Assembly: GCA_003209055.1 (NCBI GenBank)
Contig: QCTB01000009.1
Coordinates: 1 to 37,606 of the forward strand
From: Prochlorococcus sp. AG-670-O13
Lineage (GTDB): Bacteria; Cyanobacteriota; Cyanobacteriia; PCC-6307; Cyanobiaceae
DNA length: 37,606 bases
Direction of reading: 5' to 3'
Shown: one piece after another, positions 6,197 through 19,915 of the stretch
Position numbering within the stretch: the stretch's first letter is position 1
Layout: every line of letters begins with the position of its first letter
Program-made: the position numbers and the translations under genes
The notes under the pieces: model-generated
What the model saw: the letters and a program-made list of their open reading frames with translations, nothing else
What the model was told of the DNA's origin: nothing
Databases searched by the model: none

Positions 6197-6393
6197 TCTG
6201 TGGCAAATGTTTCAGATAAAAAAATACATCTGCCACGCTTAAAACTATTGACCTTATTAGGTTTATAAGAATCTGTGGCAGATAACAGACAATATATACA
6301 GAAAGATTATTTATTTATAGGTATTAAGGTGTAAATCGTTTTTATAACATTTGTAAGTTTGCCAAAAACATCTGCTTCATCTGCCACAAATCT
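6195..6393. repeat. Iteron-like inverted repeats, candidate replication origin
   Basis: Four copies of a TCTGTGGCA-type word, two per strand: AATCTGTGGCA (6195-6205, plus), CATCTGCCAC (6227-6236, minus), ATCTGTGGCAGAT (6271-6283, plus) and ATCTGCCACAAATCT (6379-6393, minus). They sit in AT-rich sequence immediately downstream of the helicase gene. Such clusters next to a Rep or helicase gene are typical of origins; they could instead be operators for one of the HTH proteins. Confidence 0.5.
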
Positions 6394-6438
6394 ATTTTTA
6401 ACAAAAACTGTCAACCCCCTTGTAAAACTTTTTTTAGG

Positions 6439-6466
6439 CTAAATAAGCGTATTTAGAGGGTTTTTT
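6439..6466 (+). terminator. Hairpin with T-run between helicase and capsid genes
   Basis: Stem CTAAATA/TATTTAG (6439-6445, 6450-6456) with an AGCG loop, then AGGG and six T. Likely ends the early operon before a separate capsid promoter. The stem is AT-rich, hence moderate confidence. Confidence 0.5.
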
Positions 6467-6475
6467 AGTTGTTTT

Positions 6476-6498
6476 AGACCTACGTAAGACCTATATAA
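6476..6498 (+). promoter_or_regulatory. Tandem AGACCTA words and TATATAA upstream of the capsid genes
   Basis: AGACCTA occurs at 6476-6482 and 6487-6493 (11-bp period), the second copy running into TATATAA, a good -10. This looks like an activator site on one DNA face just upstream of a promoter for the capsid operon. Inference from spacing only. Confidence 0.4.
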
Positions 6499-6579
6499 AG
6501 ATGAATAGAAAGATATAAGAAAAACAGGAAATTTTCGCAAAAAAACAGGGTGTATAAGAGATTAGGTCAAATTGTTTTT

Positions 6580-6711
6580 ATGAACAGAAAGACTACCTAT
6601 GACATTGATGACGACTTAATTGACTCGGACATTAATGCACTTAAATCGCCACAACATAGGCGATACAAAAAACTAGAAAATTCAGAAGGTTCTAATGACG
6701 AAAACTCCTGA
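6580..6711 (+). CDS. Small acidic-basic protein before the capsid gene
   Basis: 43 codons beginning MNRKTTYDIDDDLIDSDIN and ending NDENS. It overlaps the capsid gene start by 17 bases in another frame, which argues for a real translated ORF feeding the capsid gene. No family recognised; a scaffold or head-completion role is only a guess from position. Confidence 0.5.
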   Translation: MNRKTTYDIDDDLIDSDINALKSPQHRRYKKLENSEGSNDENS

Positions 6712-8305
6712 AAAATTACTAGCAACAAGGTTCATTGACCTTATAGATGAGACAGCAGACTCCCAGACAGATGAATTAACTTTTTCATTTAGCTCTGAAA
6801 GTCCAGTTAATAGAAATGGATTTAATGAAGTATTAGACCATGACGTTAGCTCTGTTGATTTATCCCGTTTAAAGAACTCTGCACCTTTTTTGTTTAACCA
6901 TGATATGGACAAGCCAATAGGCAGGGTCAAAAATGCGTGGATTGAGAACAGAAAAGGTAGAGCAACTATTCAATGGGGTTCTAGTGATTTAGCACAACAG
7001 CTAAGACGTGATGTAGAAACTGGTGTTCTAAGGAATATCAGCGTGGGCTACACCATAGAAAAAACAGAAGAAGATGAAGATGGAAACATGAGAGCCATGA
7101 TCTGGCAACCACATGAACTGTCTTTAGTTTCAATACCTGCTGATACCAATGTTGGTGTCGACAGAAGCCTACCCACAGATAAACCTTTAAATGAAAGAGC
7201 TATGCCCTTAGAAAGTTATGCACCAGATCATCTTTATTCTCAAAAAGAAGATGAATTTACAAAAGAATCACGCAATTTTTCAATAGTTAAGGCTGTACAA
7301 GGTCTAACAAGTGGAAGAATGTCAGGTAGAGAATTAGAAATCCAACAGGAGCTATCTCGCAAAAATGGTAGAAGTTCTCAAGGTGTTTTTGTACCTTCTG
7401 AAAGTTGGAAACAAAGAGACTATGTAAAGGGAACAGCTACAGCTGGAGGTAACTTAGTCGGTACTACTCATTTACCCGATAACTTTGTAGATGTTCTTAG
7501 AGCTAAATCAGTAGTCACAGAATTAGGTGCAACAATTTTGCCTGGACTAATTGGTGATACTTCTATTCCTACAAGAACAGCAGGGGCAACTGCATATTTT
7601 GTAGCTGAATCTGGCTCTGTTACTGAATCAACAGGAACATTTGGAACTATTACTATGTCACCAAAAGTAATGGGTGCATTTAGTAAGTTCTCTCATTTAA
7701 TGAAGCTACAAGCAACACCTGAAATAGAAGGTCTAATACGTGATGACTTTATTTCTACTCTTGCTACAAAACTAGATTTAGTTGCATTAAATGGTGGCGG
7801 TTCTAATGAACCAGATGGAATCCTACAAACTACAGGCATAGGCTCAGTAGCCATTGGAACTAATGGTGGAGCTATAACTTTGGACAAGGTTCTCGACCTA
7901 AAACAAACTGTAGCTGTAGATAATGCTGACGTAGCTTCTTGTGCTTTTGTCACTAATACAGCGGTAGAAAATGCACTATCAAAACTAAAAGATGGTAACT
8001 CTGCTTATCACCTAAGTCCTTATGCAGGTGCTATTGGTAGCCAACAGATCGCTAACAGATCATTCATGGTTTCTAATAACGTACCTTCAAACTTAACTAA
8101 GGGTTCTAGTTCTGGTGTTTGTAGTGCATTGATTTATGGAAACTTCAGCGACCTACTTGTGGGCTTGTTCGGAGAAAGTGAGATATTAGTTGATCCTTTC
8201 ACACTCTCACAAACAGGTGTTACATCAGTAAGAATCTTGCAAGCCATAGACGTTAAGGTTCGTCATGCAGAATCATTTGGTTCTATTCAAGACATAACAA
8301 CATAA
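6695..8305 (+). CDS. Prohead protease-HK97-type major capsid protein fusion
   Basis: 536 residues with two phage-head domains in one chain. Residues 25-155 look like an S78/U35 prohead protease: His69 in FLFNHD followed by PIGRV, Ser116 in RNISVGY, and ELSLVSIPAD at 141-150. Residues 200-530 resemble HK97-fold major capsid proteins (ATAGGNLVG, VVTELGATILPG, DLVALNGGGSNEPDGIL, FGESEILVDPF). The protease would cut itself free and trim the scaffold-like delta segment (about 160-220). Such fusions are known in some phages. It is the only structural gene in the element, so the capsid must work with portal and terminase from elsewhere. Confidence 0.88.
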   Translation: MTKTPEKLLATRFIDLIDETADSQTDELTFSFSSESPVNRNGFNEVLDHDVSSVDLSRLKNSAPFLFNHDMDKPIGRVKNAWIENRKGRATIQWGSSDLAQQLRRDVETGVLRNISVGYTIEKTEEDEDGNMRAMIWQPHELSLVSIPADTNVGVDRSLPTDKPLNERAMPLESYAPDHLYSQKEDEFTKESRNFSIVKAVQGLTSGRMSGRELEIQQELSRKNGRSSQGVFVPSESWKQRDYVKGTATAGGNLVGTTHLPDNFVDVLRAKSVVTELGATILPGLIGDTSIPTRTAGATAYFVAESGSVTESTGTFGTITMSPKVMGAFSKFSHLMKLQATPEIEGLIRDDFISTLATKLDLVALNGGGSNEPDGILQTTGIGSVAIGTNGGAITLDKVLDLKQTVAVDNADVASCAFVTNTAVENALSKLKDGNSAYHLSPYAGAIGSQQIANRSFMVSNNVPSNLTKGSSSGVCSALIYGNFSDLLVGLFGESEILVDPFTLSQTGVTSVRILQAIDVKVRHAESFGSIQDITT

Positions 8306-8478
8306 GTATTAGAGGGTAATAGATTTGGGTGTATAGAAGGGGTCGACTCTATACTCCTGCACTTGGAACATAGTTGTTTCTTTACATGGACTGTTGTAGG
8401 TCTATTGCCCTCGACCCTATACTTGTACTGATTGACAGTTGATCGCATATTAGAGGGAATTAATATCCCTCTTTTTTT
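8306..8478. other. Non-coding region after the capsid gene
   Basis: Contains two near-identical 12-mers, TCGACTCTATAC (8343-8354) and TCGACCCTATAC (8411-8422), a partly inverted match GTATAGAAGGGGTCGA just before the first, and then the promoter-hairpin module of the next gene. A packaging or regulatory site is possible. Confidence 0.35.
8430..8478 (+). promoter_or_regulatory. Promoter-hairpin module, copy b
   Basis: Near-palindrome GATTGACAGTTGATC (8430-8444), -10-like CATATT (8446-8451), inverted repeat AGAGGGA/TCCCTCT (8452-8458, 8466-8472) and T7 ending at the ATG of 8479. No Shine-Dalgarno fits between the T-run and the ATG. Confidence 0.6.
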
Positions 8479-8685
8479 ATGAAAACTAATCAATGGGTTA
8501 GCACTAAAGTAATTGCTGAATATTTAGAAGTATCTGAAAAGACTTTGCAAAGATGGAGAACATCAGGACTATTAAAGTTAGGTATTCATTGGCGTAGAAA
8601 GTTTCCATCAACAAAAAGATATTTACTTTATAACTTGGAATTAGTAGAAAGAGTGCTTATCAATGCAGGGTCATTAGAGCTATAG
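8479..8685 (+). CDS. Small excisionase-like helix-turn-helix protein
   Basis: 68 residues. VSTKVIAEYLEVSEKTLQRW (residues 7-26) is a clear helix-turn-helix of the MerR/excisionase type, followed by a basic wing (HWRRKFPSTKRYLLY). It has its own promoter-hairpin module, unlike the other element genes, and faces the excisionase-like gene at 8794-9042. It may be a regulator or a recombination directionality factor. It resembles the HTH protein at 3843 in plan but not closely in sequence. Confidence 0.75.
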   Translation: MKTNQWVSTKVIAEYLEVSEKTLQRWRTSGLLKLGIHWRRKFPSTKRYLLYNLELVERVLINAGSLEL

Positions 8686-8793
8686 GTTCTTTCTAGGGTA
8701 TTTATTGTGGGTCATCTGAAAGCACGATTATTTTCTAGCGTCAGCGATTATTAGATTTAGACAACGTCTAAGCAGAAATAAAGCAAAATAAAG

Positions 8794-9042
8794 CTATTTA
8801 AGGAGGTTTACGTAGAGATTAAGGTCATAGTTGTTAAGTGGTATGTAATTGGTTGCAGTTAAATTATTTTCAATATGTTTGGCTAAAGTAACACCCTTAA
8901 TAGCACCCATATAAAGGTATTTTTTATCATTTATACGTCTTATATAAGGGTCTAATATTCCCCTATCTTTTAGCTGATAAATACTAGCTCTGGATTTAAA
9001 ACCTAAACATTTATAGGCTTCTGTGAATGTACATAACATCAT
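8794..9042 (-). CDS. Excisionase-like DNA-binding protein paired with the integrase
   Basis: 82 residues. FTEAYKCLGFKSRASIYQLK (residues 6-25) fits a winged HTH of the excisionase class, followed by a GILDPYIRRINDKKYLY wing. The start ATG overlaps the integrase stop (TAATG), so it is translated with the integrase. An excisionase next to its integrase is the usual layout for such elements. A TTAGAC-AAC-GTCTAA palindrome (8757-8771) lies just past its 3' end, between it and the convergent gene at 8479. Confidence 0.65.
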   Translation of the reverse strand: MMLCTFTEAYKCLGFKSRASIYQLKDRGILDPYIRRINDKKYLYMGAIKGVTLAKHIENNLTATNYIPLNNYDLNLYVNLLK

Positions 9043-10265
9043 TAAACTTCTACTGTTTCTCTGTCAAAATCTTCTACCATTTCTTTGATTTTGAAACGTG
9101 TATAAGATTGCAGATGTACGTCATAAGAATGACCCATAGCTTCGGCAAGTTTTCTAGGGCATCTATAACTACCATCTTCTTTTTGTCTGTTATGACCTAT
9201 GTAAGCGTATCTATGTCGGAAACTATAAGGTGTTAGCTGTTGTCTTTCATCTTCTGCTTCTTTTCTAAGTTGTTGCCATACTTTGCTGTCTTTAAGGAAT
9301 CGACCTACAGCCTGACCTACACCACTTTTGTCATTTAAAGGAGGTAATTCTTCTTTTATATGTATTCTTTGCTTTAAATTCCAATTATTTTTGCTTCCAT
9401 CTATATCTTCTACAAATAAAGGAAATAACTGTCTTGGTTGTGTTGTTGAACCTTTTTTACCACCCTGAGATTTACGATAATCTGACCATATTTCATTACC
9501 ATTATTTCTTGTATGTAAATGCTTTAGGTCATTTGGTCTAAGTCCATAAGTAGCCATAAGTTGTATAGCAAACTTCCATCTGGGGTTATTTATTGAATCA
9601 ACTAATCTAAGAATCTGACTATCTGATAATGGATAACCTATACGTTTAGTTGTTGTAACTGCTTCATCATCTGACATTACAGGCGGTAGCCATTTAGATG
9701 GGAAATCTTGTCTCTGGACTACATAATTTAAAAAGCTATTTAGGGCTAATCTCATGTGCCTTCTTTGTGTAGTACCTCTAGTCCATTTAGCTAATGCAAG
9801 AGTCGATAATTCTTCACCATTCTTAGGTTTCTTCTTTTTGTTCAATAACGTCAATGCAATATGCAAAACAGGTAAATGCTTAGACTTCCAAGTTTTATCA
9901 GAAACATTTGTTTTAAATGCTCTATAGCTGTTTAAAGAATCAGCCCAATCAAGCTGAATTATTGAACTGGCACTTGATGAAATTGCATAGGCTGTTTTTA
10001 GGTCTAACTTTCCTTTAGCTTCTTTAAAAATGTTATTTACTAAGACAATCCTGTTTAAAGCGTCTATCCAAGAATCCTCTGACCACTTATAAGAAGTATT
10101 TAAAGAAATGATGTTTGGTTTTTGTCCTACAAAAATTCTTACTGAACCCCTTGAATTTCCAACTGTCCAGTTTTTACCAACTTTTAACTTTAATGCGTTA
10201 CGAAAGTCTTTTACCCAAGAATTAGACATAGACACTAGTGCTGTATGTACCCTTAATTTTTCCAC
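9042..10265 (-). CDS. int: Tyrosine recombinase (integrase) of the satellite element
   Basis: 407 residues. Catalytic residues can be placed: Arg243 in ATYGLRPNDL, Arg350 in TPYSFRH (Tyr347 stands where many family members have His), His379 in AMGHS and the nucleophile Tyr388 in SYTRF. Residues 1-90 would hold the arm-binding domain and 120-190 the core-binding domain. The start is GTG at 10265: an in-frame stop lies six codons upstream with no ATG between. The gene ends with the excisionase-like gene and begins about 118 bases from the right tRNA fragment. An arm-like word overlaps its start, which could give autoregulation. It is the only recombinase gene in the window. Confidence 0.93.
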   Translation of the reverse strand: MEKLRVHTALVSMSNSWVKDFRNALKLKVGKNWTVGNSRGSVRIFVGQKPNIISLNTSYKWSEDSWIDALNRIVLVNNIFKEAKGKLDLKTAYAISSSASSIIQLDWADSLNSYRAFKTNVSDKTWKSKHLPVLHIALTLLNKKKKPKNGEELSTLALAKWTRGTTQRRHMRLALNSFLNYVVQRQDFPSKWLPPVMSDDEAVTTTKRIGYPLSDSQILRLVDSINNPRWKFAIQLMATYGLRPNDLKHLHTRNNGNEIWSDYRKSQGGKKGSTTQPRQLFPLFVEDIDGSKNNWNLKQRIHIKEELPPLNDKSGVGQAVGRFLKDSKVWQQLRKEAEDERQQLTPYSFRHRYAYIGHNRQKEDGSYRCPRKLAEAMGHSYDVHLQSYTRFKIKEMVEDFDRETVEV

Positions 10266-10382
10266 ACAAATGTGTAGAATTCAATTACGAACCATTCACT
10301 TACGTACATCTACAGAGTCTCACATTCAATCTATACCTTTAGTTATAGCTTAAAAGCCCTAGTCTCACTATCTACACACTAT

Positions 10383-10427
10383 TGCTTTGGGAGCACTAGG
10401 TCGCAGGTTCGAATCCTGTCGCCCCGA
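10383..10427 (+). repeat. tRNA-Pro 3'-half, attachment site copy 3 (right end of the integrase element)
   Basis: Near-perfect fragment from the anticodon stem to CGCCCCGA. Pairs with copy 2 as the direct repeats flanking the satellite. Confidence 0.9.
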
Positions 10428-11217
10428 TCAATAATAGCAACGAGTCTCAGCTAATAATATATTCGCCCTAAAAAGTAGAGTGCCCAAAAAGTGCCCAAAA
10501 CCTTAACTTTTGTTTTTCTAAAAATTTTTTAAAAAAGTTATGGAATCTCAAATATTAGTATTCACATCCATCAGTTTTGGCTTGAATAATATCTGTCTTC
10601 ATTTGAATTAAATCAAATTTAACCGCTTTAGGAACGGATTGATAAGGAGACCATTGGAAAACTAACGTATTAGATTCTAATAACTTGTTAATAAATTTTT
10701 TTGGATTTGGGTTGAATAGTGCTGTTCCCGATGTTGACTCTTCCCAAGAGGTTTTTATAGGCTCTCCAGAATCCCAACGCATTCCAACTTTATTATTATC
10801 TGAGTTATATGTGGGTGTTTTAATATATGCATCTAGATTTATGGTCTTATCATTTTTAAAATTGCATCTTATCACGATTGTTGCGGGCTCCTGAACACCT
10901 ATTGAATTTGATACTTTGGTAATTGAATTATGAGTAATCACAATTTTTGTTTCATCAGTCATTAAATCAACGTCAGATGTATATCCAGCATTAACGGACG
11001 CAGGAATAGCGAGGACAGCAAGAAAAGGTAGTAAAAATTTCTTCATAAAAGACAACCTAATTGCACTTAATTGTAGGTCTAATTTCAATAAATAACTTTA
11101 TAAATTTTGTACCCAAAAGGTGCCCAAAATTAATATTTGAGTTTTATTTAGTCAGTATTTAAAACGCAGATATGTCTTATAGCAACACTAGTCTCAATTA
11201 TTGCCTTGTTGGTGCGG
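10428..11217. mobile_element. Integrase-less cassette D (arm word GTGCCCAAAA)
   Basis: Only 790 bp between tRNA fragments. Left pair: GTGCCCAAAAA, GTGCCCAAAAC (10480-10501). Right pair: GTACCCAAAAG, GTGCCCAAAAT (11109-11130), 88 bp from the right fragment. It carries a single gene, making it the smallest complete cassette here. Confidence 0.8.
10555..11046 (-). CDS. Exported VasI/TagO-like protein
   Basis: I place the start at the ATG of MKKFLLPFLAVLAIPASVNAG (11046) rather than 42 bases further out, because this gives a clean signal peptide cleaved after VNA. The mature 140 or so residues follow the pattern of the VasI/TagO-like family (ATIVIRCNF, KVGMRWDSGEP, W near 100, a GTALFNPNP loop, then VFQWSPY and VKFDL), a beta-rich exported domain named for type VI secretion but found widely outside it. 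No other secretion gene is present, so the type VI link should not be taken as function. Sole gene of its cassette. Confidence 0.7.
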   Translation of the reverse strand: MKKFLLPFLAVLAIPASVNAGYTSDVDLMTDETKIVITHNSITKVSNSIGVQEPATIVIRCNFKNDKTINLDAYIKTPTYNSDNNKVGMRWDSGEPIKTSWEESTSGTALFNPNPKKFINKLLESNTLVFQWSPYQSVPKAVKFDLIQMKTDIIQAKTDGCEY

Positions 11218-11263
11218 GTGCTTTGGGAGCACTAGGTCGCAGGTTCGAATCCTGTCGCCCCGA
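11218..11263 (+). repeat. tRNA-Pro 3'-half, attachment site copy 4
   Basis: Near-perfect. Followed by the TCAGTTATAGCAGTAAGTCTCAGC-type left-end sequence rather than by the tRNA terminator. Confidence 0.9.
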
Positions 11264-12271
11264 TTCAGTTATAGCAGTAAGTCTCAGCTAATAATAATTT
11301 TCCCTCAAAAAAGCGTTCCCTAATATTTCCCTCAAAAACAAATAAAATATTTTCAAAACATTGATTTCTGAAAGATCCATATTTATCCTTAAAAGAATTA
11401 CTTTTCACTTACTTTTAGAGAGTTATATATGGTTAACGCCTCATTAAACTGGGCTAGCATAGTTGGGATTGCTCTATTCATAGCTGGTTTTATTCCTTTT
11501 TTTAAGAAATCAATTTCAACTAAATATGATCCATTTCTAGTTCCTGTTTTTTGGCTATGCGGGTCTATACTATTTTTTCAAGGCTGGCGACTAGATCCAA
11601 TTCTTCAAACTGGACAATTTTTACTCGCAGGCATAGTATTTTTTGTTGGCTATGAAAATATAAAATTGAGGGAATTAATTAAAAAACTGAAGAATCAATC
11701 GTATGAAGAAAGTAAATTTAATGAAGAAGATGAAGATATTAGATTTTTATTCTGTCCAAAATGTAGAGCACCTATTAAAGATAAAGATTTATTTTGTGGA
11801 GAATGCGGATATAAATTAGAGGAAATTAATGAACAAAAAGTTGAAAAAGAGAGAACTAAAAGGAAGCAAAAACGAAGTCTAAAAAGCTTCGAGTATATGT
11901 CTGCATTAGGACTTTCAGAGGATTTTGATGAATCTCAACTTAAAAAGGCTTATCGAAGGCAGGCTAGGAAATGGCATCCTGATTTAAATAAAAATGACAA
12001 AAATGCTGAAGATCAATTTATGTTAATTAATGAAGCTTATGAATTCCTAAACAAAGAATTAGATAGAGAAAAAGATAAAAAATATTATTAAATCTAAAAA
12101 AGATGATTTTTTTTTCATTTCTTAAGAAATAGGTCTAATGTAAATTCTTTTTGTAAATTTCCCTCATATTTCCCTCAAACGAATCACAATTAGTCTTTTT
12201 TAGTCCAGACTAAATTACTAAAAATTAGAGTTATGTCTTTAAGTCTCAATTATAGCCTTGTTTTAGCGGGT
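11264..12271. mobile_element. Integrase-less cassette E (arm word TTTCCCTCAAA)
   Basis: Left: GTTCCCTAATA, TTTCCCTCAAA (11315-11336), with an extra TTTCCCTCAAA at 11299-11309. Right: TTTCCCTCATA, TTTCCCTCAAA (12158-12179), 93 bp from the next fragment. Carries one gene. Confidence 0.8.
11429..12091 (+). CDS. Ycf66-like membrane domain fused to zinc ribbon and J-domain
   Basis: 220 residues with three parts. Residues 1-85 match the Ycf66 N-terminal pattern (MVNASLNWASIVGIALFIAG; FFQGWRLDPILQTGQFLLAG), a cyanobacterial/plastid membrane domain with about three helices. Residues 109-126 form a zinc ribbon (Cys109, 112, 123, 126). Residues 153-215 are a J-domain with HPD at 183-185, so it should recruit an Hsp70/DnaK to the membrane. 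The zinc ribbon resembles those in the next cassette, especially the 13951 protein (CPKCGAPI, LFCGECGFKLE), suggesting they work in one pathway although they arrived in separate cassettes. Confidence 0.85.
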   Translation: MVNASLNWASIVGIALFIAGFIPFFKKSISTKYDPFLVPVFWLCGSILFFQGWRLDPILQTGQFLLAGIVFFVGYENIKLRELIKKLKNQSYEESKFNEEDEDIRFLFCPKCRAPIKDKDLFCGECGYKLEEINEQKVEKERTKRKQKRSLKSFEYMSALGLSEDFDESQLKKAYRRQARKWHPDLNKNDKNAEDQFMLINEAYEFLNKELDREKDKKYY

Positions 12272-12315
12272 TCTTTGGGAGCACTAGGTCGCAGGTTCGA
12301 ATCCTGTCGCCCCGA
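12272..12315 (+). repeat. tRNA-Pro 3'-half, attachment site copy 5
   Basis: As the other copies but with TTCTTTGGGAGC in place of GTGCTTTGGGAGC, breaking one stem pair. Confidence 0.88.
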
Positions 12316-12339
12316 CTCAATCAAAACCAAGTCATACTA

Positions 12340-12364
12340 GCGAGTTGCCCAGACTCGCTTTTTT
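12340..12364 (+). terminator. tRNA-Pro terminator copy
   Basis: Stem GCGAGT/ACTCGC and T6 right after the fragment, same as at 2203. Confidence 0.75.
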
Positions 12365-12435
12365 ATTGGGAAAATCTGTCCGCGGCCAAAGCGGACAAAT
12401 AGCGGACAAAAATCAATTCAATAAGCACCATATCA

Positions 12436-12984
12436 TTATTGGTTGGTTAATGCTTGCATGAGTTCTTTTAGAAAAACTCTCAAAAGTGAAAATATAACTA
12501 TCCCTGCTGGCACAGCAAAGACCCTACTTATAAAACTTATTGCAGAATCAAATTTCTTCTGATTAAGGATTCTTTTTTTCTGATTAAGCATTCTATTGAG
12601 ATTATTTTTTGCGTCTAAATAATTTGGATTAATCTCAAGTGCCTTTTTTGTGGCAGATAAAGCTTTTGATTCATTCCCAAGCCTTAGATACATCACCCCA
12701 AGATTTAGATATGTCTCTTCAATAAATGGTGCATTTGGGTAGATTTCAATAACCTTTTCAAAATCTCCTTTTGCCCCTTTGTAATCTTTTTCAAGCATTT
12801 TCTTTATCCCTCTATCATGAAAGAAAGACGCTCTCTCTATAGTTTCCTTACATTCTGTTTCCCTAGTTTCATCCTTAAAAGATGAGGAAACTTTTTTCTC
12901 TTTTAAAGAATTAATTGATGCTCCACATTTTGTACAAAAACGGTCATTAGGTGAAAATTTTTGACCGCATTGAGTACAAAACAT
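12436..12984 (-). CDS. Zinc ribbon-TPR protein with C-terminal membrane anchor
   Basis: 182 residues. Zinc ribbon at the N-terminus (Cys3, Cys6, Cys17, Cys20), then tetratricopeptide-like repeats at about 48-120 (ASFFHDRGIKKMLEKDYKGA; AYLNLG-type ETYLNLGVMYLRLGNESKAL; ALEINPNYLDAKNNL), then a hydrophobic C-terminus (about 150-175). TPRs bind partner proteins, so this looks like a membrane-tethered scaffold. It is the last gene of a three-gene minus-strand unit, 17 bases after the peptidase gene. Confidence 0.8.
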   Translation of the reverse strand: MFCTQCGQKFSPNDRFCTKCGASINSLKEKKVSSSFKDETRETECKETIERASFFHDRGIKKMLEKDYKGAKGDFEKVIEIYPNAPFIEETYLNLGVMYLRLGNESKALSATKKALEINPNYLDAKNNLNRMLNQKKRILNQKKFDSAISFISRVFAVPAGIVIFSLLRVFLKELMQALTNQ

Positions 12985-13001
12985 AAAATTTAAAAATTAA
13001 A

Positions 13002-13949
13002 TTATTTTATTTCGACCTTGTTGCCACAATTACCACAGAATTTTTGGGACATTTGCAACTTATTTCCACATTGTGAGCAAAATTGAAAATTATCGGAAAT
13101 CGATTCAGTACTTACTTTTTTTTCTCTATTTAAAATATTTTCAAATTCTTCAGAAGCTTCCCATTTCAATATTTCAGAGGCTCTTAAAACAGACCAAGGA
13201 TGTGTATTATCTGCAGTACTCCAAAATCTAATAAGTTTGTTCAACTTTCCATAGTCAAAATCTTCAAAATCATTTGCCTGTTTTAAGAATGATTTCTCAA
13301 AATTTTCTACATTTATGTGATTAACCGGCAACCCAGAGACTTTTATGATGGTTCTAATAGCGACCTTACTATCTTGGCAAGCAAGCAAGCCTGCTCTATC
13401 GGAAGTAAATTCTGACATTCGCCACCAATACCTTAATGCGACCTGAAAACTACCTCCAACCAAACCTGCTATTCCTAAGCTCATTTGACTAGCTATTTCA
13501 ACAATTGCTTTAAAATTTTCAGCAACATCTCTATAAAGCACATGTTCGCTTTTTATATGCCCCAATTCATGGGCTAATACAAACAGCAATTCATCTTTTT
13601 CTAATCTTTCGATAGCTCCATATGAAATCCCAATATAAGGTCTTTTTACTCCATGAGCGAATGCATTAATACGAGGATTATTATCTAAATAAAGAGGAGG
13701 GACCTGATTCATATCAAGAATTGAACATGCTTCTAAATAAATATTAAAAAGTTCAGAATAATTTTCTTTATTTATTTCTATTCTTGATCCTGTAGATTCA
13801 AAATAATAAAGCCTATCCAAGAACTTATCCCAAATTTGACTAACAATTGCCCTTATCCCAGGAATAGATTCTAGCTTTTCTAAAGCAGACCTATCTAAAG
13901 GATGTTCATACTCTTCTGGTCTTAGATCATTAAGGATTTTTTTTTCCAT
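13002..13949 (-). CDS. M48-family zinc metallopeptidase with C-terminal zinc ribbon
   Basis: 315 residues. HELGH at 127-131 gives two zinc ligands and the catalytic Glu128; Glu180 in SEFTSDRAG is the third ligand, the standard M48 layout. NTHPW near 248-252 is also family-typical. Residues 291-308 form a zinc ribbon (Cys291, 294, 305, 308). No strong transmembrane helices flank the active site, so it is closer to the soluble or peripheral M48 group than to HtpX. It follows the SHOCT-like gene after a single base and is probably its partner. Confidence 0.88.
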   Translation of the reverse strand: MEKKILNDLRPEEYEHPLDRSALEKLESIPGIRAIVSQIWDKFLDRLYYFESTGSRIEINKENYSELFNIYLEACSILDMNQVPPLYLDNNPRINAFAHGVKRPYIGISYGAIERLEKDELLFVLAHELGHIKSEHVLYRDVAENFKAIVEIASQMSLGIAGLVGGSFQVALRYWWRMSEFTSDRAGLLACQDSKVAIRTIIKVSGLPVNHINVENFEKSFLKQANDFEDFDYGKLNKLIRFWSTADNTHPWSVLRASEILKWEASEEFENILNREKKVSTESISDNFQFCSQCGNKLQMSQKFCGNCGNKVEIK

Positions 13950-13950
13950 A

Positions 13951-14835
13951 TTATTTATCTTTAAATAATAAATTTCTTCTCAAGATGTCATATTCATCTT
14001 TATCAATTAATTCTTGATCGAAAAGAACTTTTAATTCAGCTAATTTTTCTCTAGAGATAGATTTAATAGATGGAATTAATTCATTATTATTTGAAGAATC
14101 GCAATCCGAATTATTAGAGAGATTTAATGCTGACTTTCGGAGGATATTATATTCGCTTTCAACTATAAGTTGATCATCATAAAAACTCTTTAATATTTTT
14201 AGAGTTTCAATTGGTAAATTGTTGTGGCTTTGTTTTTTTTTGGTTATCTCATTAACACTATTTTCTTGAGCCTTTTCTTCTTTTTTAGATTCTGAGGATT
14301 TCTTATTAATTGGATTTTCAATATTATTTTCTTTTTTGAACTCTATTAACTTTTCTTCTAGCTTCTCTGATTTCTCTTGAGTTGGTTTTATTGCTTCTAA
14401 TTTAAACCCACATTCTCCACAAAATAAATCTTGTTCATTAATTGGGGCTCCGCATTTAGGACAGGCTGACACTCTTACTACTTTTTTAATATCATCTTTA
14501 ATAAATTCTTTGTCATTTAAAGATGATCCTTTCTTAAGCTTTAATTTACCTTCTTTCTCTTTGATAGCATTTTCTGATTTTTTAACTTGTTCATTTTGTT
14601 CAGCTTCATTAATATCTTCTAATTGATTTCTATTCAAATTTTTTTTGAATTTAGAAGCCCAGTCAGGGTCATCAGGGCGTCTTTTATTTTTTATAAATTT
14701 ATATGCAGGATCATATGCATTTGAAGATGAACTATTACGATTCCCAGATGAAATTTTATTACCAATATTTTTTATTGTTCCAAAAAGTCTTTTTTGAGCT
14801 AGAAGTGGATCATTTTCATTATTATTTGCTGTCAT
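13951..14835 (-). CDS. Zinc ribbon protein with duplicated SHOCT-like C-terminus
   Basis: 294 residues. The first 120 are charged and probably disordered; a zinc ribbon follows (Cys125, 128, 139, 142). Two short helical repeats end the protein: ETLKILKSFYDDQLIVESEY (from about 206) and KLAELKVLFDQELIDKDEY (from about 265), both like the SHOCT motif, which mediates oligomerisation or anchoring. First gene of the minus-strand unit, divergent from 14895 across 59 bases that must hold both promoters. Confidence 0.78.
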   Translation of the reverse strand: MTANNNENDPLLAQKRLFGTIKNIGNKISSGNRNSSSSNAYDPAYKFIKNKRRPDDPDWASKFKKNLNRNQLEDINEAEQNEQVKKSENAIKEKEGKLKLKKGSSLNDKEFIKDDIKKVVRVSACPKCGAPINEQDLFCGECGFKLEAIKPTQEKSEKLEEKLIEFKKENNIENPINKKSSESKKEEKAQENSVNEITKKKQSHNNLPIETLKILKSFYDDQLIVESEYNILRKSALNLSNNSDCDSSNNNELIPSIKSISREKLAELKVLFDQELIDKDEYDILRRNLLFKDK

Positions 14836-14894
14836 TTGTTTTTAAATAACCATCCTAATATTATATTTACTAAAAAATAGTTTTCAAATTTATA

Positions 14895-15338
14895 ATGTTT
14901 TGTATTGAATGTGGAACAAAATTAGATCCGAGTCAAAAGTTTTGCAAAAACTGTGGGGCTCCTATCAAAACACAACCTCAACCTAGTACGAAAGTTTATA
15001 ATCGAAACGAAACTAGAAATACCAAAACTAGAAGCCTAACAAAAGCTTTTCAGCTAAGACAACAGGATATTGGATGGGGTTATGCCTTGGCACACATAAT
15101 ACCTTTTGTAGGTATTTTTTATGCTTTTTCTAGAAAAACAATTACTCCATTCTTAATTACTATTGGGGTTAATTTATCAGCTGGTTTTCTTGTAGGCATT
15201 TTGATGTTCCAATCAAGTGAGGAAGAAACAAACATTGTTGCCACTCTTCTCTCCTTTGTCACGACTCCGGTAGCAGCAAAAGTTGGCATAACAAAGGCAC
15301 GTACTTATGCCAAAAAACGCTTGGATGAAATTGAATAA
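14895..15338 (+). CDS. Zinc ribbon membrane protein
   Basis: 147 residues. N-terminal zinc ribbon (Cys3, Cys6, Cys17, Cys20) nearly the same as in the 12436 protein, a Thr/Gln/Arg-rich linker, then hydrophobic segments at about 60-80 and 85-105 and a shorter one around 115-130. Probably a small integral membrane protein with a cytoplasmic zinc ribbon. It is the only gene of cassette F on the plus strand and reads away from the other three. Confidence 0.8.
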   Translation: MFCIECGTKLDPSQKFCKNCGAPIKTQPQPSTKVYNRNETRNTKTRSLTKAFQLRQQDIGWGYALAHIIPFVGIFYAFSRKTITPFLITIGVNLSAGFLVGILMFQSSEEETNIVATLLSFVTTPVAAKVGITKARTYAKKRLDEIE

Positions 15339-15478
15339 TTTATATTATTTTTTTCTAAATTAAAAGTTTGCGGACAAATTGCGGACAAATCTTGCTTTAT
15401 TTGTCATGACAAACTTCGCAGAACTGAGCAAAAAATTAGATATAGCTTGAAAACCTAGTACTGCACTATGGCTGTTAA

Positions 15479-15524
15479 GTGCTTTGGGAGCACTAGGTCG
15501 CAGGTTCGAATCCTGTCGCCCCGA
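15479..15524 (+). repeat. tRNA-Pro 3'-half, attachment site copy 6
   Basis: Near-perfect fragment; followed by the TCAGTTATAGCA-type left end without a terminator. Confidence 0.9.
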
Positions 15525-15705
15525 TCAGTTATAGCAATGGATTACAAATATTAGAGTTAGTCTTATATTGAGAAAGGAGCGCTAAAAGGAGCGCTAGATT
15601 GATATAGTTTGATCTACATTGTGCCTAGTTATAAATTCAATAAGTGAAAGTAGTAAGCATTCTCTCAATCGTTTTTAGATTAGCGGTATAGTTTAATTTT
15701 ATTAT

Positions 15706-16134
15706 CTAATTAATATTTGAATTTCTATTACACATTAAATTAAAAGGAATCTTAGCACTTGATCTTCTCTCGAAGTCGTACCAAATACTTGGCAAAACCG
15801 TATTAATCACTTCTACTGGTTTAAATCCTTTTTCCCCCCTTATTCTCTGCTCCACAAAAGTTATTCTTGATAATTTTTCCTCACAAAGTAGTTCATGAGT
15901 TTTTATTTCATCAACATATTCACCATCACGAAGTGTTTGGAAAATGCAACTATTATCATTACAACCAACTGGTCTCCAATAATTCTTCATTCCAGTTTTC
16001 TCTCTAAAACCATCAGGTGATACTAAAACAGTTTCATCTATAAATATCCACTTGTTTTTTGCAACTACATTTTTAATGTTTGAGGAGAGAATAAAAAATA
16101 TCACTAAAAAAGAAGAAGGTAATAAGCTTTTCAT
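15706..16134 (-). CDS. Exported protein of unknown function
   Basis: 142 residues with a signal peptide (MKSLLPSSFLVIFFILSSNI) likely cleaved after VVA. The mature part starts with a WIFIDETVLVSPDG strand and has cysteines in VGCNDNSCIF, LLCEE and LMCNR. The pattern of an aromatic-rich strand, a central R/W segment and conserved Cys recalls the surface-adhesin E-like family, but I would not rely on it. The start directly abuts the stop of 16135-16608. Its first bases are a variant of the recurring gene start. Confidence 0.7.
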   Translation of the reverse strand: MKSLLPSSFLVIFFILSSNIKNVVAKNKWIFIDETVLVSPDGFREKTGMKNYWRPVGCNDNSCIFQTLRDGEYVDEIKTHELLCEEKLSRITFVEQRIRGEKGFKPVEVINTVLPSIWYDFERRSSAKIPFNLMCNRNSNIN

Positions 16135-16608
16135 TTATTTAGGAGGGCAATAACGGATATTGCAAACTGCATCATGATAATACCCATGTCGATTCATGAA
16201 AATTAATTTAGTAAGACTTTTAAATTGAGGGTCTAAAGACTTCTGGGAATAATAGAAATCTAATCCTTTTAAAGAACTCATATATTCTTCATAAGACATA
16301 TCAGTTTCACCTAATTTTATTTTTATTACTTCATTAGCTAATCTGATATTTCTTGAATGCTTTCTTTCAAATAAACCTTCCTTAAGTTTCAGATTATAAT
16401 TTTCTGCAATTTCTTTAACTATCTTTTCTTCTTTTTCTGCTCGTATTATTAGATTTGGATCTTTTTCAGAAAAAATATTTATTCCAAAGATAATAAATAT
16501 AAAAACCAAAGGTGAAATTAAACCTAAAGCTAAAATACCGATTAAAAAATCTTTTAAATCTTTGAAATTAGGATTTCTAAAATCTTTAGTAAGTATTGGT
16601 AAAATCAT
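16135..16608 (-). CDS. Single-pass membrane protein of unknown function
   Basis: 157 residues. One strong membrane segment (about 20-48, FLIGILALGLISPLVFIFII), then a charged, mostly helical domain with two cysteines near the end (AVCNIRYCPPK). It lies between two genes for exported proteins, with no space to the downstream one, so the three likely act together at the cell envelope. No family recognised. Confidence 0.7.
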   Translation of the reverse strand: MILPILTKDFRNPNFKDLKDFLIGILALGLISPLVFIFIIFGINIFSEKDPNLIIRAEKEEKIVKEIAENYNLKLKEGLFERKHSRNIRLANEVIKIKLGETDMSYEEYMSSLKGLDFYYSQKSLDPQFKSLTKLIFMNRHGYYHDAVCNIRYCPPK

Positions 16609-16651
16609 TTTATTTTTTAATCTGATTATTTAGATCGGCAGTCAATGTCTC

Positions 16652-17122
16652 TTATGCTCCTCCACAATAGTTTTTACCAAAGCGACCAAAGTGTGTCTTC
16701 TTTGTCCTTTCATTTGTAATTGAATAAATCTCACCTCTGACATCTGAATCATAAAACTTACTACTCCTACATTCAACTGGGACAAATTTTAGACATAGTT
16801 TAATTCGATCATTAGGCTTATACATTTTTCTTGCGTCTTTTATCAAGATTGGGGGATGTGTGCCGAGATAATCCCAATATTTACCTTCATACTTTTTCAA
16901 CTCGTAACCAAGGTATAAAACCAAATCAGAAACCTTAGGGTCATGAGATAAAGCAATTATCGCCCTTGTATCATGTTTTGCTTCTCTCCATGTTGTATAT
17001 AGCTTTTGAAAAGTTGCATTAGTGCATTCATGGACTTTTAAATCAGGTTTTAAACCATAAGTTCGTGCTTGAACAGGTGTACTCAATCCAAGTATTAATG
17101 GTGCAAGTAGTAAGAGGCGCAT
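16652..17122 (-). CDS. Exported cysteine-containing protein of unknown function
   Basis: 156 residues. Signal peptide MRLLLLAPLILGLSTPVQAR, cleavage likely after VQA. The mature part has cysteines at VHECTN, KLCLKF, VECRSS and NYCGG, consistent with two disulphides in the periplasm. No domain recognised. The first 23 bases are one of the closest matches to the recurring cargo gene start (ATGAAACGCTTACTACTTGC). One base separates its start from the stop of 17124-17312. Confidence 0.75.
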   Translation of the reverse strand: MRLLLLAPLILGLSTPVQARTYGLKPDLKVHECTNATFQKLYTTWREAKHDTRAIIALSHDPKVSDLVLYLGYELKKYEGKYWDYLGTHPPILIKDARKMYKPNDRIKLCLKFVPVECRSSKFYDSDVRGEIYSITNERTKKTHFGRFGKNYCGGA

Positions 17123-17123
17123 T

Positions 17124-17312
17124 TTAATCCCAACAATTTACTTCAACTTCATCCCCTTCGACTTCAGCTTCACATAAAACAAGCATGTTCCCAATCAAGT
17201 CGCCTTTATTGCCATAAGCCCAAACGGTCACATCATCAGTTTCAAAATCACAAGAGATGGCGGCAGTAGAAAGAGGGAGTGTGGCTAATAAAGCTATTAA
17301 AAATTTACGCAT
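17124..17312 (-). CDS. Small exported acidic protein
   Basis: 62 residues. Signal peptide MRKFLIALLATLPLSTAA, then a 44-residue acidic mature peptide with three cysteines (SCDF, VLCEAE, VNCWD). First gene of the cassette G unit and directly preceded by a promoter-hairpin module whose T-run ends at the ATG. Function unknown. Confidence 0.75.
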   Translation of the reverse strand: MRKFLIALLATLPLSTAAISCDFETDDVTVWAYGNKGDLIGNMLVLCEAEVEGDEVEVNCWD

Positions 17313-17356
17313 AAAAAAGAGGGTTTTATCCCTCTATATTAGATCGACTGTTAAAT
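17313..17356 (-). promoter_or_regulatory. Promoter-hairpin module, copy c
   Basis: On the minus strand: near-palindrome with one half changed (TTAACAGTCGATC, 17342-17354), -10-like TAATAT (17336-17341), inverted repeat AGAGGG/CCCTCT (17318-17335) and T-run ending at the ATG of 17312. It should drive the whole four-gene unit. Confidence 0.65.
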
Positions 17357-17554
17357 TTTTCTATCTTTTTAGCGACCTATTTAACTTAAGGCACTATGTC
17401 GTAAAGGGGAGCGCTAGGGGGAGCGCTAGATGTATATACAAACTAAATATAAGTATATACATACTGCAATTTACTGTCTCAAAGAGGTTCCACTAAGTTA
17501 CTTACATCCTAGTTATAGCTTCATTTTATTGGGTATTCTCAAATTAACAAAGGA

Positions 17555-17603
17555 GTGCTTTGGGAGCACTAGGTCGCAGGTTCGAATCCTGTCGCCCCGA
17601 CCA
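17555..17603 (+). repeat. tRNA-Pro 3'-half, attachment site copy 7
   Basis: Near-perfect and includes CCA, as at 2134. Confidence 0.9.
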
Positions 17604-17623
17604 TTTCAAAACCAAGTCATACA

Positions 17624-17649
17624 AGAGAGTTTCCCAGACTCTCTTTTTT
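17624..17649 (+). terminator. tRNA-Pro terminator copy with compensatory stem
   Basis: Stem AGAGAGT/ACTCTCT instead of GCGAGT/ACTCGC, same TTTCCCAG-type loop and T6 run. Both sides changed together. Confidence 0.78.
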
Positions 17650-17807
17650 ATTGCCAAGTATAAGAAATATAAGACTTAGCGATTATATAGCGATTATTTG
17701 CTATGCCTTGCACAACCTGACAGCCATAATCTCCCATTATTATCTCTCTTTTTTCAAATTACTTGAGATTACTAAAGCTATTATCTAACTAATGATTTAA
17801 AACCTAA

Positions 17808-18131
17808 ATGGAAAGTCCTGTGGAAAAAAATGAAATTTTAGAACTTTTTGAAAACCTCAAACCAATTTTCATATGGATTCAAAAAAACAATACTATTCTT
17901 ACTTATGGGACAATTCTTTTCCTTTTCGCATGGTATTTAAATCCCATAATTAAAGAATCAAAATTCAAAAACATGTGTGCACTTAATACGACCAAGATTA
18001 TACAAAAGGGTAAATATGCAAAAGAAAAAGACTACGAAGACTTGGGAGAAAAGTTTGGATTAGTTTATGCAGATTGGAAAGATATCAATCGTTTTTGCGA
18101 ATTTTATAAATCTAGTCATTACAATTATTAA
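17808..18131 (+). CDS. Small single-pass membrane protein with Cys/CE motif
   Basis: 107 residues. A membrane segment at about 30-48 (TYGTILFLFAWYLNPI), then NMCALNTTK and, near the end, INRFCEFYKS. This Cys...(F/Y)CE arrangement also occurs in 2871-3212 and 32397-32657. First of three closely spaced genes; the next starts 21 bases on. Function unknown; with an Imm17-like gene next door, a toxin-immunity link can be proposed but not shown. Confidence 0.65.
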   Translation: MESPVEKNEILELFENLKPIFIWIQKNNTILTYGTILFLFAWYLNPIIKESKFKNMCALNTTKIIQKGKYAKEKDYEDLGEKFGLVYADWKDINRFCEFYKSSHYNY

Positions 18132-18152
18132 ATATCTTAAAAATAATACGCA

Positions 18153-18347
18153 ATGGAAATAGATGAATTATTTTGTATTTTTGGAGGTTTTTTTACTTTA
18201 TTAGCAGCGAGAAGTAATTGGAATTGGTTTTGGAATCATCCCAAAGCTAAAGGAGTTTTATCTATGTGTAGAGGTAAAAAAGGAGCAAGGGTTTTTTATT
18301 CGATTTTGGGTATTCTGTTAATAGCCTTAGGCATTAATGGGTTCTAA
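18153..18347 (+). CDS. Imm17-like small membrane protein
   Basis: 64 residues, two membrane segments with a basic loop. The pattern NWNWFWN ... GKKGARVFYSILGILLIALGI agrees with the immunity-protein-17 family as I remember it (two helices, W-x-F, then G-R/K-x-G-A-R-x-F-Y). The family name comes from its placement beside polymorphic toxins; no toxin is evident here, so take it as a family label only. Confidence 0.6.
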   Translation: MEIDELFCIFGGFFTLLAARSNWNWFWNHPKAKGVLSMCRGKKGARVFYSILGILLIALGINGF

Positions 18348-18367
18348 ACTAAATCCTAATTTATAAA

Positions 18368-18691
18368 ATGAGACAAACACCAACTGAGAGAAGAGAGCAA
18401 AGTAACCCCATCCTAATAGGAATATTTGTTGGAGTTGTTTCTCCCCTATCATCTTTAATTTGGGGGATTAGGCAAAGATCATTGAAACTTGCTTTGTTCC
18501 CTTATTTATTCGTATTTATAGCTGGATTCATAATTCTTTCATTGGCTAATGAAACAAAATTCAAACCAGAGTTTAAAATTCCACTACAGCTTATTGCTGG
18601 ATATTATTCTTTTGACCTAACAAAAAAAATGAAGGAAGAAGCACTTAAGAAGAAAAACAAAGCCTTGGATGCTGAAATTAAAAATAATTAG
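18368..18691 (+). CDS. Small membrane protein of unknown function
   Basis: 107 residues. Hydrophobic segments at about 17-32 and 45-63 and a weaker one around 75-85, then a Lys-rich tail (KKMKEEALKKKNKALDAE). No family recognised. Third gene of cassette H, 20 bases after the Imm17-like gene and 10 bases before the right arm pair. Confidence 0.6.
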   Translation: MRQTPTERREQSNPILIGIFVGVVSPLSSLIWGIRQRSLKLALFPYLFVFIAGFIILSLANETKFKPEFKIPLQLIAGYYSFDLTKKMKEEALKKKNKALDAEIKNN

Positions 18692-18789
18692 AGTAGAAAG
18701 CTTAGCGATTATTTAGCGATTATTTGCATACCTATGCCATACGTTGCTGTAAATAGGGCAATATTGAGACTCATATAAATCCTATTAGT

Positions 18790-18963
18790 ACCAAAACAAT
18801 CTATAGATTGCTCAATAGAGAAGTATTAGAAGACTATGTTTATTTAGAAAAATCAGGAAGAGTTTATCTAATGTTAGTACCACCAAATCTTCCAACTCTT
18901 GCGGAAAAAATTAGAACAAATATTCAATTTAGAAGAAAAAATATTATCTACCAATTCTCTTAA
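18790..18963 (+). pseudogene. Truncated excisionase-like HTH gene
   Basis: In frame from about 18793: KTIYRLLNREVLEDYVYLEK, then SGRVYLMLVPPNLPTLAEK, to a TAA at 18961. The first part is the second helix and wing of an HTH of the same broad type as 8479. The start and first helix are missing. Sequence to its left (18765-18790) is the cassette right-end motif TGAGACTCATATAAAT, so the break point is the junction with cassette H. Overlaps the 3' end of pstS copy 2. Confidence 0.5.
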
Positions 18964-19915
18964 CAGCAGCTCTTGATTTCTCAAGAATATCTCCTTTTAG
19001 TGGAACAAATCCAAGTGATGGAGCTTTATCTTGATATTCATCACTTAGAAGTGTATTCAATGACTTCTTGATAGCTTTAGTATTTCTACCATTGCCTGTT
19101 TCATAAGCAAGTATCCATGTTAATGAAGCTATAGGATAAGCTCCTTTTGCTGTTGGATTAGGATTCTTACCAGCAAGATTTTCATCTAAAGTAATGCCGT
19201 TAAGAGCTTTAGCGCCAGCTTCAACAGATGGTTTCAAAAATTCACCTGACAAATTCTGAAGTGCAGCAGCTTTCACATTTCCTTTTATATAAGACTGGTT
19301 AACATAACCAATTGCACCGGGAGTATTTTGAATAACACCGGCAACACCAGAATTACCTTTAGCACCAACACCTGCTGGCCATTTTACAGACTTACCTGTG
19401 CCTAAAGTCCAAGTTTTTGAAAAGGCTTCCATAGAGTTTGTGAAAGATTTAGTTGTACCTGATCCATCAGAACGATGAGTCCAAGTCAATTTTCCTGGTT
19501 TACAATCTAATTCTTTCCAATCTTTAATCATTCCCATAGCAACTTGTACTGCTTTCTCTTGGGAAAGTTTTAAATCGCAGTCGTAGTTATAACCAAATGC
19601 AATAGTTCCACCAACCATAGGAATTTGAACTAGACCTCTAGTAACCTTTGCAATATCTTTATCTTTCATTGGATCATCTGATGCACCAAAGTTAACAGTT
19701 TGATCAATAAATGCTTTTCTTCCGGAACCAGAACCAACAGCTTGATAATTAACTCTTGGGCCGCCAGATTTTGCTAGATCAAAAAACCATCGAGTGTAGA
19801 TTTTGGCAGGGAATGATGCTCCAGCACCACTTAATCTCATAGAAGCTGTTGCACTTTGACCAGCTAAAATAGCTAGTGCAGAAGTGAATAGCAGAGCTTT
19901 CTTTGCAATGCTCAT
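18944..19915 (-). CDS. pstS: Phosphate ABC transporter substrate-binding protein PstS, copy 2
   Basis: 323 residues, same length and order of motifs as copy 1 (GAGASFP, GSGSGRKAF, FGASDDPM, HRSDGSGTTKSF) and identical over long stretches; differences cluster in the signal peptide and surface loops. Silent differences are frequent, so this is not a very recent duplication. A PHO-box-like repeat lies about 95-120 bases upstream, so this copy is probably induced by phosphate starvation. The transporter membrane and ATPase genes are not in the window. Confidence 0.95.
   Translation of the reverse strand: MSIAKKALLFTSALAILAGQSATASMRLSGAGASFPAKIYTRWFFDLAKSGGPRVNYQAVGSGSGRKAFIDQTVNFGASDDPMKDKDIAKVTRGLVQIPMVGGTIAFGYNYDCDLKLSQEKAVQVAMGMIKDWKELDCKPGKLTWTHRSDGSGTTKSFTNSMEAFSKTWTLGTGKSVKWPAGVGAKGNSGVAGVIQNTPGAIGYVNQSYIKGNVKAAALQNLSGEFLKPSVEAGAKALNGITLDENLAGKNPNPTAKGAYPIASLTWILAYETGNGRNTKAIKKSLNTLLSDEYQDKAPSLGFVPLKGDILEKSRAAVKRIGR

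Follow-up and report, generated by a model that had tools for sequence, protein, structure and literature searches.

The subject of this study is a set of five genes of Prochlorococcus sp. AG-670-O13, each encoding one zinc ribbon, which lie in two adjacent cassettes bordered by copies of the 3′ end of tRNA-Pro(UGG) and include a gene for an M48 metallopeptidase. The window, by which we mean the whole stretch of DNA analysed, is contig 9 (QCTB01000009.1, 37,606 nucleotides) of a draft genome (GCA_003209055.1) that totals 1,060,280 bases and is 68% complete. The five proteins are called J, TPR, M48, SHOCT and MEM below, and the genomes and loci compared bear our G and L numbers. Genes and bordering repeats are as follows.

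11221-11263, plus strand: att-like repeat (tRNA-Pro-UGG 3′ end), left border of the J cassette; 43-nt motif, 0 mismatches.
11429-12091, plus strand: J, Ycf66_N - zinc ribbon - J-domain protein, 220 aa; Pfam Ycf66_N 50.5, DnaJ 64.9, Zn_Ribbon_1 29.6 bits.
12273-12315, plus strand: att-like repeat separating the J and four-gene cassettes; 0 mismatches.
12436-12984, minus strand: TPR, N-terminal ribbon - TPR - C-terminal transmembrane tail, 182 aa; TPR_1 51.6, Zn_Ribbon_1 29.1 bits; hydrophobic segment 155-173.
13002-13949, minus strand: M48, metallopeptidase with a C-terminal ribbon after a low-confidence linker, 315 aa; Peptidase_M48 75.8 bits versus a cut-off of 20.3.
13951-14835, minus strand: SHOCT, soluble mid-ribbon protein with a C-terminal SHOCT-like helical segment, 294 aa; SHOCT 18.6 bits, below cut-off.
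14895-15338, plus strand: MEM, N-terminal ribbon - small membrane domain, 147 aa; Zn_Ribbon_1 31.3 bits; two hydrophobic segments.
15482-15524, plus strand: att-like repeat, right border of the four-gene cassette; 0 mismatches.

Each of the five open reading frames (ORFs) contains one ribbon of exactly CxxC-x10-CxxC form, as a first-pass annotation of this DNA had claimed, and Zn_Ribbon_1 (PF13240) matches all five; in the protein scan four were above the curated cut-off and SHOCT reached 24.5 versus 25 bits. When the whole draft genome was scanned, PF13240 was found at five places at E≤1, all above the cut-off, and these were the five window genes, so the clustering of ribbons is not due to chance. 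The first-pass annotation had also recognised the HELGH metallopeptidase, described below, and the J-domain, which is borne out by the HPD motif of the translated protein, but it had overlooked the Ycf66_N domain. The TPRs that it gave in the plural come down to a single strong motif, and its SHOCT-like repeats to a resemblance, as the match falls short of the cut-off of 27 bits. Membrane anchors, which it attributed to most of the five, were found by hydropathy in three only (weakly in J, at the C-terminus of TPR, and in MEM), the M48 and SHOCT proteins having none.

Frames of about 317 aa matching the N-terminus of J occur, among the matches listed, in many of the 249 genus genomes sampled, so that the fusion probably arose from the Ycf66 family; of 53 papers on Ycf66, the ten listed concerned plastid genomes. 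A counterpart 90% identical to J lies inside the M48 cassette of G451. Relatives of TPR are present in G391, G378, G408 and G184, the last with a different ribbon type, and relatives of SHOCT (E<1e-20) in 5 of the 249 genomes, every one of which has a ribbon-bearing M48. MEM is oriented divergently from the TPR, M48 and SHOCT genes. Its AlphaFold2 (AF2) model was poor (pLDDT 67.4, pTM 0.45) and was not used.

Cassettes bounded by tRNA-Pro repeats

The window contains 13 copies of the tRNA-Pro(UGG) 3′ end (at most 10 mismatches in 43 nt), all on the plus strand and seven of them perfect. The 43-nt motif is the 3′ part of predicted tRNA-Pro(tgg) genes in L025, L081 and L085. The two adjacent cassettes of the first-pass annotation can be taken literally, with repeats at 11221, 12273 and 15482: positions 11264-12272 hold the J gene alone, and positions 12316-15481 hold exactly four genes, TPR, M48, SHOCT and MEM.

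In G391, G378 and G408, orthologues of TPR, M48 and SHOCT are found with a ribbon membrane protein at the MEM position, in a cassette of 3.1-3.2 kb. The cassettes of G487 and G535 consist of M48 and a ribbon-DUF4234 protein, plus one ribbon-less ORF in G535, and that of G451 unites ribbon-J, M48-ribbon and ribbon-DUF4234 genes. In G228 the ribbon genes are bordered by a different direct repeat, of 128 nt at 90%, and in G474 by one of 57 nt at 77%; no direct-repeat border was found around the ribbon M48 locus in G499 and G445, and the loci of G382 and G184 sit at contig ends. The M48 cassette adjoins an integrase gene in G378 and G535, and is about 2 kb from one in the window.

Of 24 ORFs in the seven M48 cassettes that are intact and repeat-bounded, 23 bear a ribbon, versus 1 of 113 ORFs in cassettes outside the M48 and J types at the 12 loci examined; the ORFs counted are mechanical ones of at least 60 aa, overlap-filtered, and some, mostly in the latter class, are surely not genes. 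The broken G537 cassette (1/4) is left out of the first figure, and J-type cassettes (1/9) out of both.

In the window at large, tandem repeats of the tRNA-Pro(UGG) 3′ end divide the island from 2137 to 31794 into cassettes of 1-9 ORFs. By reading, many of these cassettes encode small proteins with signal-like N-termini or of no evident family.

Co-occurrence of ribbon-bearing M48 and ribbon partners

Of the 249 genus genomes, 12, window genome included, have a ribbon-bearing M48, which is broken in one of them; two further genomes of the family, G228 and G184, among 400, have one as well. At all 13 intact loci of these fourteen, at least one additional ribbon ORF is present nearby. A genome-contig scan with M48 gave one locus, in Prochlorococcus sp. 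AG-418-I20, with an M48 protein 97% identical to that of the window. Searching the 249 genomes with PF13240 at E≤2e-4 gave 53 matches in 24 genomes, 22 of them above the cut-off; 39 of the 53 are in the 12 genomes with ribbon M48, all on the contig that carries it.

No match was found by tblastn in 50,697 phage records; on IMG/VR viral contigs 65 matches to the M48 alignment pattern were obtained and none was confirmed; and no plasmid was found with a DUF4234-ribbon protein. In G443 (L129, 5217-6362), two adjacent proteins with another ribbon type (ISDKA form) and hydrophobic stretches occupy one tRNA-Pro-bounded cassette, in which no peptidase was recognised.

The M48 peptidase

The HExxH motif, downstream Glu, profile and fold place the window protein in the M48 family. 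Of its HELGH motif (127-131), H127, E128 and H131 are invariant in 13 ribbon-bearing M48 proteins, as are E180, D184 and the four ribbon cysteines; these proteins are 34-97% identical to that of the window, and the length of the linker varies among homologues. The AF2 model has a pLDDT of 83.8, with residues 277-287, directly before the ribbon, below 50. A ribbon held on such a flexible tether would suit a docking tag.

Aligned with VIA-align, the model resembles 3c37 (Z 10.4, root-mean-square deviation (rmsd) 4.7, 170 residues aligned), BepA (Z 10.0, rmsd 4.9, 170), ZMPSTE24 (Z 9.7, rmsd 4.7, 184), the related BlaR1 (Z 9.7, rmsd 4.3, 174) and HtpX (Z 7.0). Identity with HtpX (M48B) was rejected: the best NCBIfam HtpX score was 41.5 versus a cut-off of 285 bits, and no hydrophobic segment was found at the threshold used.

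Cyanobacterial relatives of this M48 are present in 99 of 244 phylum genomes, window genome included. Among the matches listed, they align to position 287 at most of the 312-position model, short of the ribbon, with the exception of G627, in which a 990-aa protein (L113, 4164-7136) combines M48 with two ribbon motifs, the DZR match being only 13.6 bits. In this distant phylum genome a Dynamin_N gene (L113, 9079-10001; 66.6 bits) lies about 2 kb from the M48-double-ribbon gene. Around the ribbon-less M48 genes of L106-L109, no ORF of CxxC-x(7-16)-CxxC form was flagged; in L107, a kinase-like ORF with a cysteine-rich prefix is 4.3 kb from M48. Ribbon-less relatives also lie near an Hsp70-family gene on a Tsukamurella plasmid (L142) and near HEPN and HNH genes on a Thermus plasmid (L143).

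Ribbon-less relatives and MEM-PrsW pairs

Relatives without ribbon were found for three of the five proteins, M48, J and MEM. The ribbon thus appears to be an add-on domain; for J and MEM, its distribution may reflect either gain or loss. Ribbon-less relatives of J occur in G391 and G470, and the alignment with a G294 protein skips the ribbon. Over 89 nt, the J and SHOCT ribbons of the window are 79% identical; with the SHOCT ribbon of G378, the J ribbon agrees in 86% of 21 columns. Such closeness suggests that the ribbon was copied between the two genes.

At six loci examined (L136-L139, L144 and L145) the MEM domain has no ribbon. In four genomes, G294, G512, G562 and G580, MEM lies near a PrsW peptidase, which is not homologous to M48. 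In G294 and G512 a MEM-ribbon protein is beside a PrsW with a ribbon motif; in G562 and G580, where one ORF separates the two genes in G580, both are without ribbon. No MEM-PrsW pair of mixed ribbon state was seen. As a clue that the ribbon has a part in linking a peptidase with its membrane partner, this both-or-neither state is the strongest. PrsW was searched for with PF13367 in 40 chosen genomes, of which 5 were positive; in G386, about 70 kb separate a PrsW from a MEM, neither of them with a ribbon. At L144 (2054-4848) and L145 (4265-7166), ribbon-less MEM near PrsW is accompanied by an unknown protein of 446-450 aa.

A satellite-like element beside the cassettes

One further feature of the array precedes the J cassette.

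3467-10384, no strand assigned: repeat-bounded satellite-like element with a helicase, an HK97-type protease-capsid fusion and a putative tyrosine integrase (9042-10265); PHROG major head protein 1.3e-109, DNA helicase 2.7e-64.

This element is a possible mobiliser of the cassette array. Its integrase is weakly recognised (Pfam, 18 versus 27.1 bits; no PHROG match), and is 36% identical to a protein of L026 that matches PHROG integrase. L026 carries a related satellite element (10769-19030), with a 251-aa ORF that may be part of a DNA ligase. Satellite and cassettes are flanked by two genes, 781-1752 and 18944-19915, presumably pstS-like, whose proteins are 85% identical; next to the G408 cassette (L079) is a partial ORF similar to them.

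Discussion

The window carries a real, mobile, ribbon-marked peptidase cassette. The explanation we favour, though at somewhat less than even odds, is that it encodes a ribbon-assembled, membrane-associated M48 proteolytic complex for quality control or stress, carried as tycheposon-type accessory cargo. Ribbon membrane proteins (MEM, TPR through its C-terminal helix, and DUF4234 proteins elsewhere) would recruit the soluble M48 to the cytosolic side of the membrane, the ribbons being cytosolic and recruitment passing through ribbon-ribbon contacts or a common ribbon-binding partner. TPR would act as adaptor and SHOCT as scaffold, and the Ycf66-ribbon-J protein, where present, would recruit Hsp70. 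The complex might then, much like HtpX, serve quality control or the response to envelope stress by degrading membrane-associated proteins that are misfolded, damaged or foreign, and its cassette would travel as accessory cargo of tRNA-Pro-integrating elements. Of these steps, assembly is suggested by co-variation of the genes and peptidase activity by the intact catalytic residues, while the purpose is proposed by analogy; a quality-control or stress role is plausible in view of M48, of J and of that analogy.

Several observations weigh against this explanation. The remaining 14 of the 53 ribbon matches are in 12 genomes without ribbon M48, which rules out that ribbon genes are restricted to M48 cassettes; the ribbon is tied to the M48 system strongly, not exclusively. 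In these 12 genomes the only ribbon-peptidase pairs seen were the PrsW pairs of G294 and G512, with none in the other ten, and the G512 pair is itself weak by Pfam: no ribbon match was obtained at E≤0.05 for its PrsW, which shows just the motif, and the ribbon of its MEM reaches 20.6 versus 25 bits. With six MEM-peptidase neighbours, whose MEM proteins are close homologues, the sample is too small and too little independent to yield a strong statistic. At the fourteenth locus, in G537, M48 is broken by stops and no other ribbon ORF is present. The membrane protein of the G391, G378 and G408 cassettes resembles MEM mainly in the ribbon, and was missed by a ribbon-less MEM query. For the most part, each gene type has its own conserved ribbon, and recent spread can therefore be discounted for most of them. 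Trees of ribbon M48 proteins disagree (40/0 in one, with six ribbon-less rows, two pairs of them identical; 93/91 with other outgroups, five ribbon-less rows; the L108-L110 M48 proteins left out), and a firm single origin is rejected. Foldseek gave nothing at E≤0.001 with the M48 model, the best match being 3c37 at 2.9e-3. PspA/IM30 was found in none of four genomes searched (G000, 68% complete, G391, G378 and G451), controls being positive in 9 of 14, so that we speak of a resemblance to the phage shock protein (PSP) network and reject membership. Lastly, zinc ribbons are able to bind nucleic acid as well.

The last point bears on one rival explanation, which sees the ribbons as binders of nucleic acid or of the ribosome, or as zinc sensors, and has the complex act on translating or DNA-linked substrates. 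Several ribbons per system would fit one external ligand, but protein docking accounts no less well for the membrane partners and for MEM and PrsW either both having or both lacking the ribbon, and we give this rival little credence. It is also very improbable that the genes merely accumulated without a shared system, ribbons being common island domains and the genes travelling together by accident. The J and MEM families do occur alone, and the 14 matches outside M48 genomes would suit such accretion, but the contrast of 23/24 with 1/113 ribbon ORFs and the ribbon partners at 13 of 13 intact loci speak against it, as does the finding of ribbon M48 with partners between other direct repeats in G228 and G474.

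Regulated proteolysis for signalling is unlikely. Here the ribbon membrane protein would be a sensor or substrate, and the ribbon peptidase, M48 or PrsW, would respond to a membrane signal by cutting that protein or its partner, as in BlaR1 or PrsW-RsiW. The recurring pair is indeed a peptidase with a membrane protein, non-homologous peptidases adjoin MEM, BlaR1 is among the structural matches of M48, and PrsW is the site-1 protease of RsiW in B. subtilis; but ORF reading and Pfam scans recognised no transcription-factor gene in the M48 cassettes, and the TPR, SHOCT and J partners fit an assembly better. Defence or inter-element conflict, with a ribbon-held peptidase effector released on phage or satellite infection and harming the infected cell, strikes us as rather improbable. 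The sparse distribution (12/249), the diversity (34-97% identity to the window M48) and the proximity of integrases in G378, G535 and the window would agree with it, but the sole PADLOC match is a weak one of J to PycTM (E 0.0027, 16.1 bits), the seven others of eight proteins giving none at E≤0.01, and neither the phage records nor IMG/VR yielded a confirmed match. The first-pass annotation had called a defence role possible yet unsupported, which still holds.

Its proposal that the ribbon is a common docking tag is supported in part, insofar as the ribbon looks to be the shared mark of one system, with the four-gene unit in four genomes and ribbon partners at every intact locus, whereas docking itself we infer. 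The co-occurrence that it wished to see checked is found for ribbon M48 and its partners, but J and MEM occur alone as well. Independent genes with ribbons of different families, which it named as grounds for abandoning the idea, were encountered only in part: J and MEM are indeed found on their own, but such lone copies, where examined, have no ribbon.

If the favoured membrane-associated M48 complex is extended, the ribbon could be a portable assembly code: any protein gaining it would join a membrane-bound proteolytic complex, peptidases (M48, PrsW) and anchors (MEM, DUF4234, TPR tail) would be interchangeable, and versions would be traded between Prochlorococcus cells as tRNA-Pro-bounded cassettes. 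We regard this extension as doubtful. If true, it would offer a simple rule for building and swapping accessory membrane complexes in streamlined ocean bacteria, with a short ribbon as connector, and would suggest a common role for MEM, the DUF4234-ribbon proteins, the Ycf66-J fusion and a widespread uncharacterised M48 type. The window also shows what kind of cargo, other than nutrient genes, an array of tRNA-bounded cassettes can hold.

Comparison with known systems

Literature searches on DUF4234 with zinc ribbon, on the ribbon with M48, J-domain, TPR, metallopeptidase, SHOCT or PrsW, and on Prochlorococcus islands listed no title concerning this cassette in the collection searched. Among M48 proteins, HtpX and BepA share with that of the window the profile, the HExxH active site and the fold. 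The window M48 differs from HtpX in scoring far below the HtpX models, in having no predicted transmembrane segment and in its C-terminal ribbon. BepA has its TPR within the peptidase protein, whereas in the cassette the TPR is on a separate protein. The cyanobacterial soluble M48 proteins of YEHPxD type are relatives in sequence, but among the matches listed they lack the ribbon, except in G627.

Tycheposons have a tyrosine recombinase, a tRNA border and cargo, according to a second-hand account (PMC10872708). The window array shares these features, with tRNA 3′-end repeats and a putative tyrosine recombinase, weakly recognised in the window and better in L026 and L085; here the array is divided into small cassettes by the tRNA-Pro repeats.

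Double-zinc-ribbon proteins with a C-terminal SHOCT, of which PMC3581485 gives eight cases, unite both domains in one protein, as does the 13951 gene. There a single protein is concerned, whereas the SHOCT of the 13951 gene is below threshold and its neighbours make up a peptidase cassette with it. The systems of PspAA, membrane metallopeptidase, PspAB and SHOCT-like genes (PMC11237479) have a membrane-associated metallopeptidase, of a family unnamed there, and occasionally a SHOCT-like gene. The window cassette differs from them in having a ribbon on every part, no PspA-family gene seen, and an M48 without predicted transmembrane segment.

In the PSP network at large, membrane assemblies of ribbon, SHOCT, band-7 and metallopeptidase proteins have been described, and SHOCT-like domains are predicted to anchor proteins at the inner leaflet (PMC11237479). 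The B. subtilis operon is given as pspA-ydjGHI (PMC9239133) or ydjFGHL (PMC11237479), and according to the same papers the membrane recruitment of PspA may fall to ribbon-bearing YdjG and its partners. A further echo of PSP is found in G440, where a ribbon-DUF4234 gene has, two ORFs away, a gene for a band-7 protein that matches SHOCT weakly at its C-terminus. The core of our cassette is M48, and no PspA, band-7 or TPM gene was recognised in it, whereas the Ydj operon pairs a ribbon-bearing transmembrane YdjG with a band-7 protein having a C-terminal ribbon. With such assemblies, and ribbon-SHOCT proteins, already on record, the first-pass description of a system "of a new kind" was too strong; the cassette is kin to the known ribbon/SHOCT membrane assemblies.

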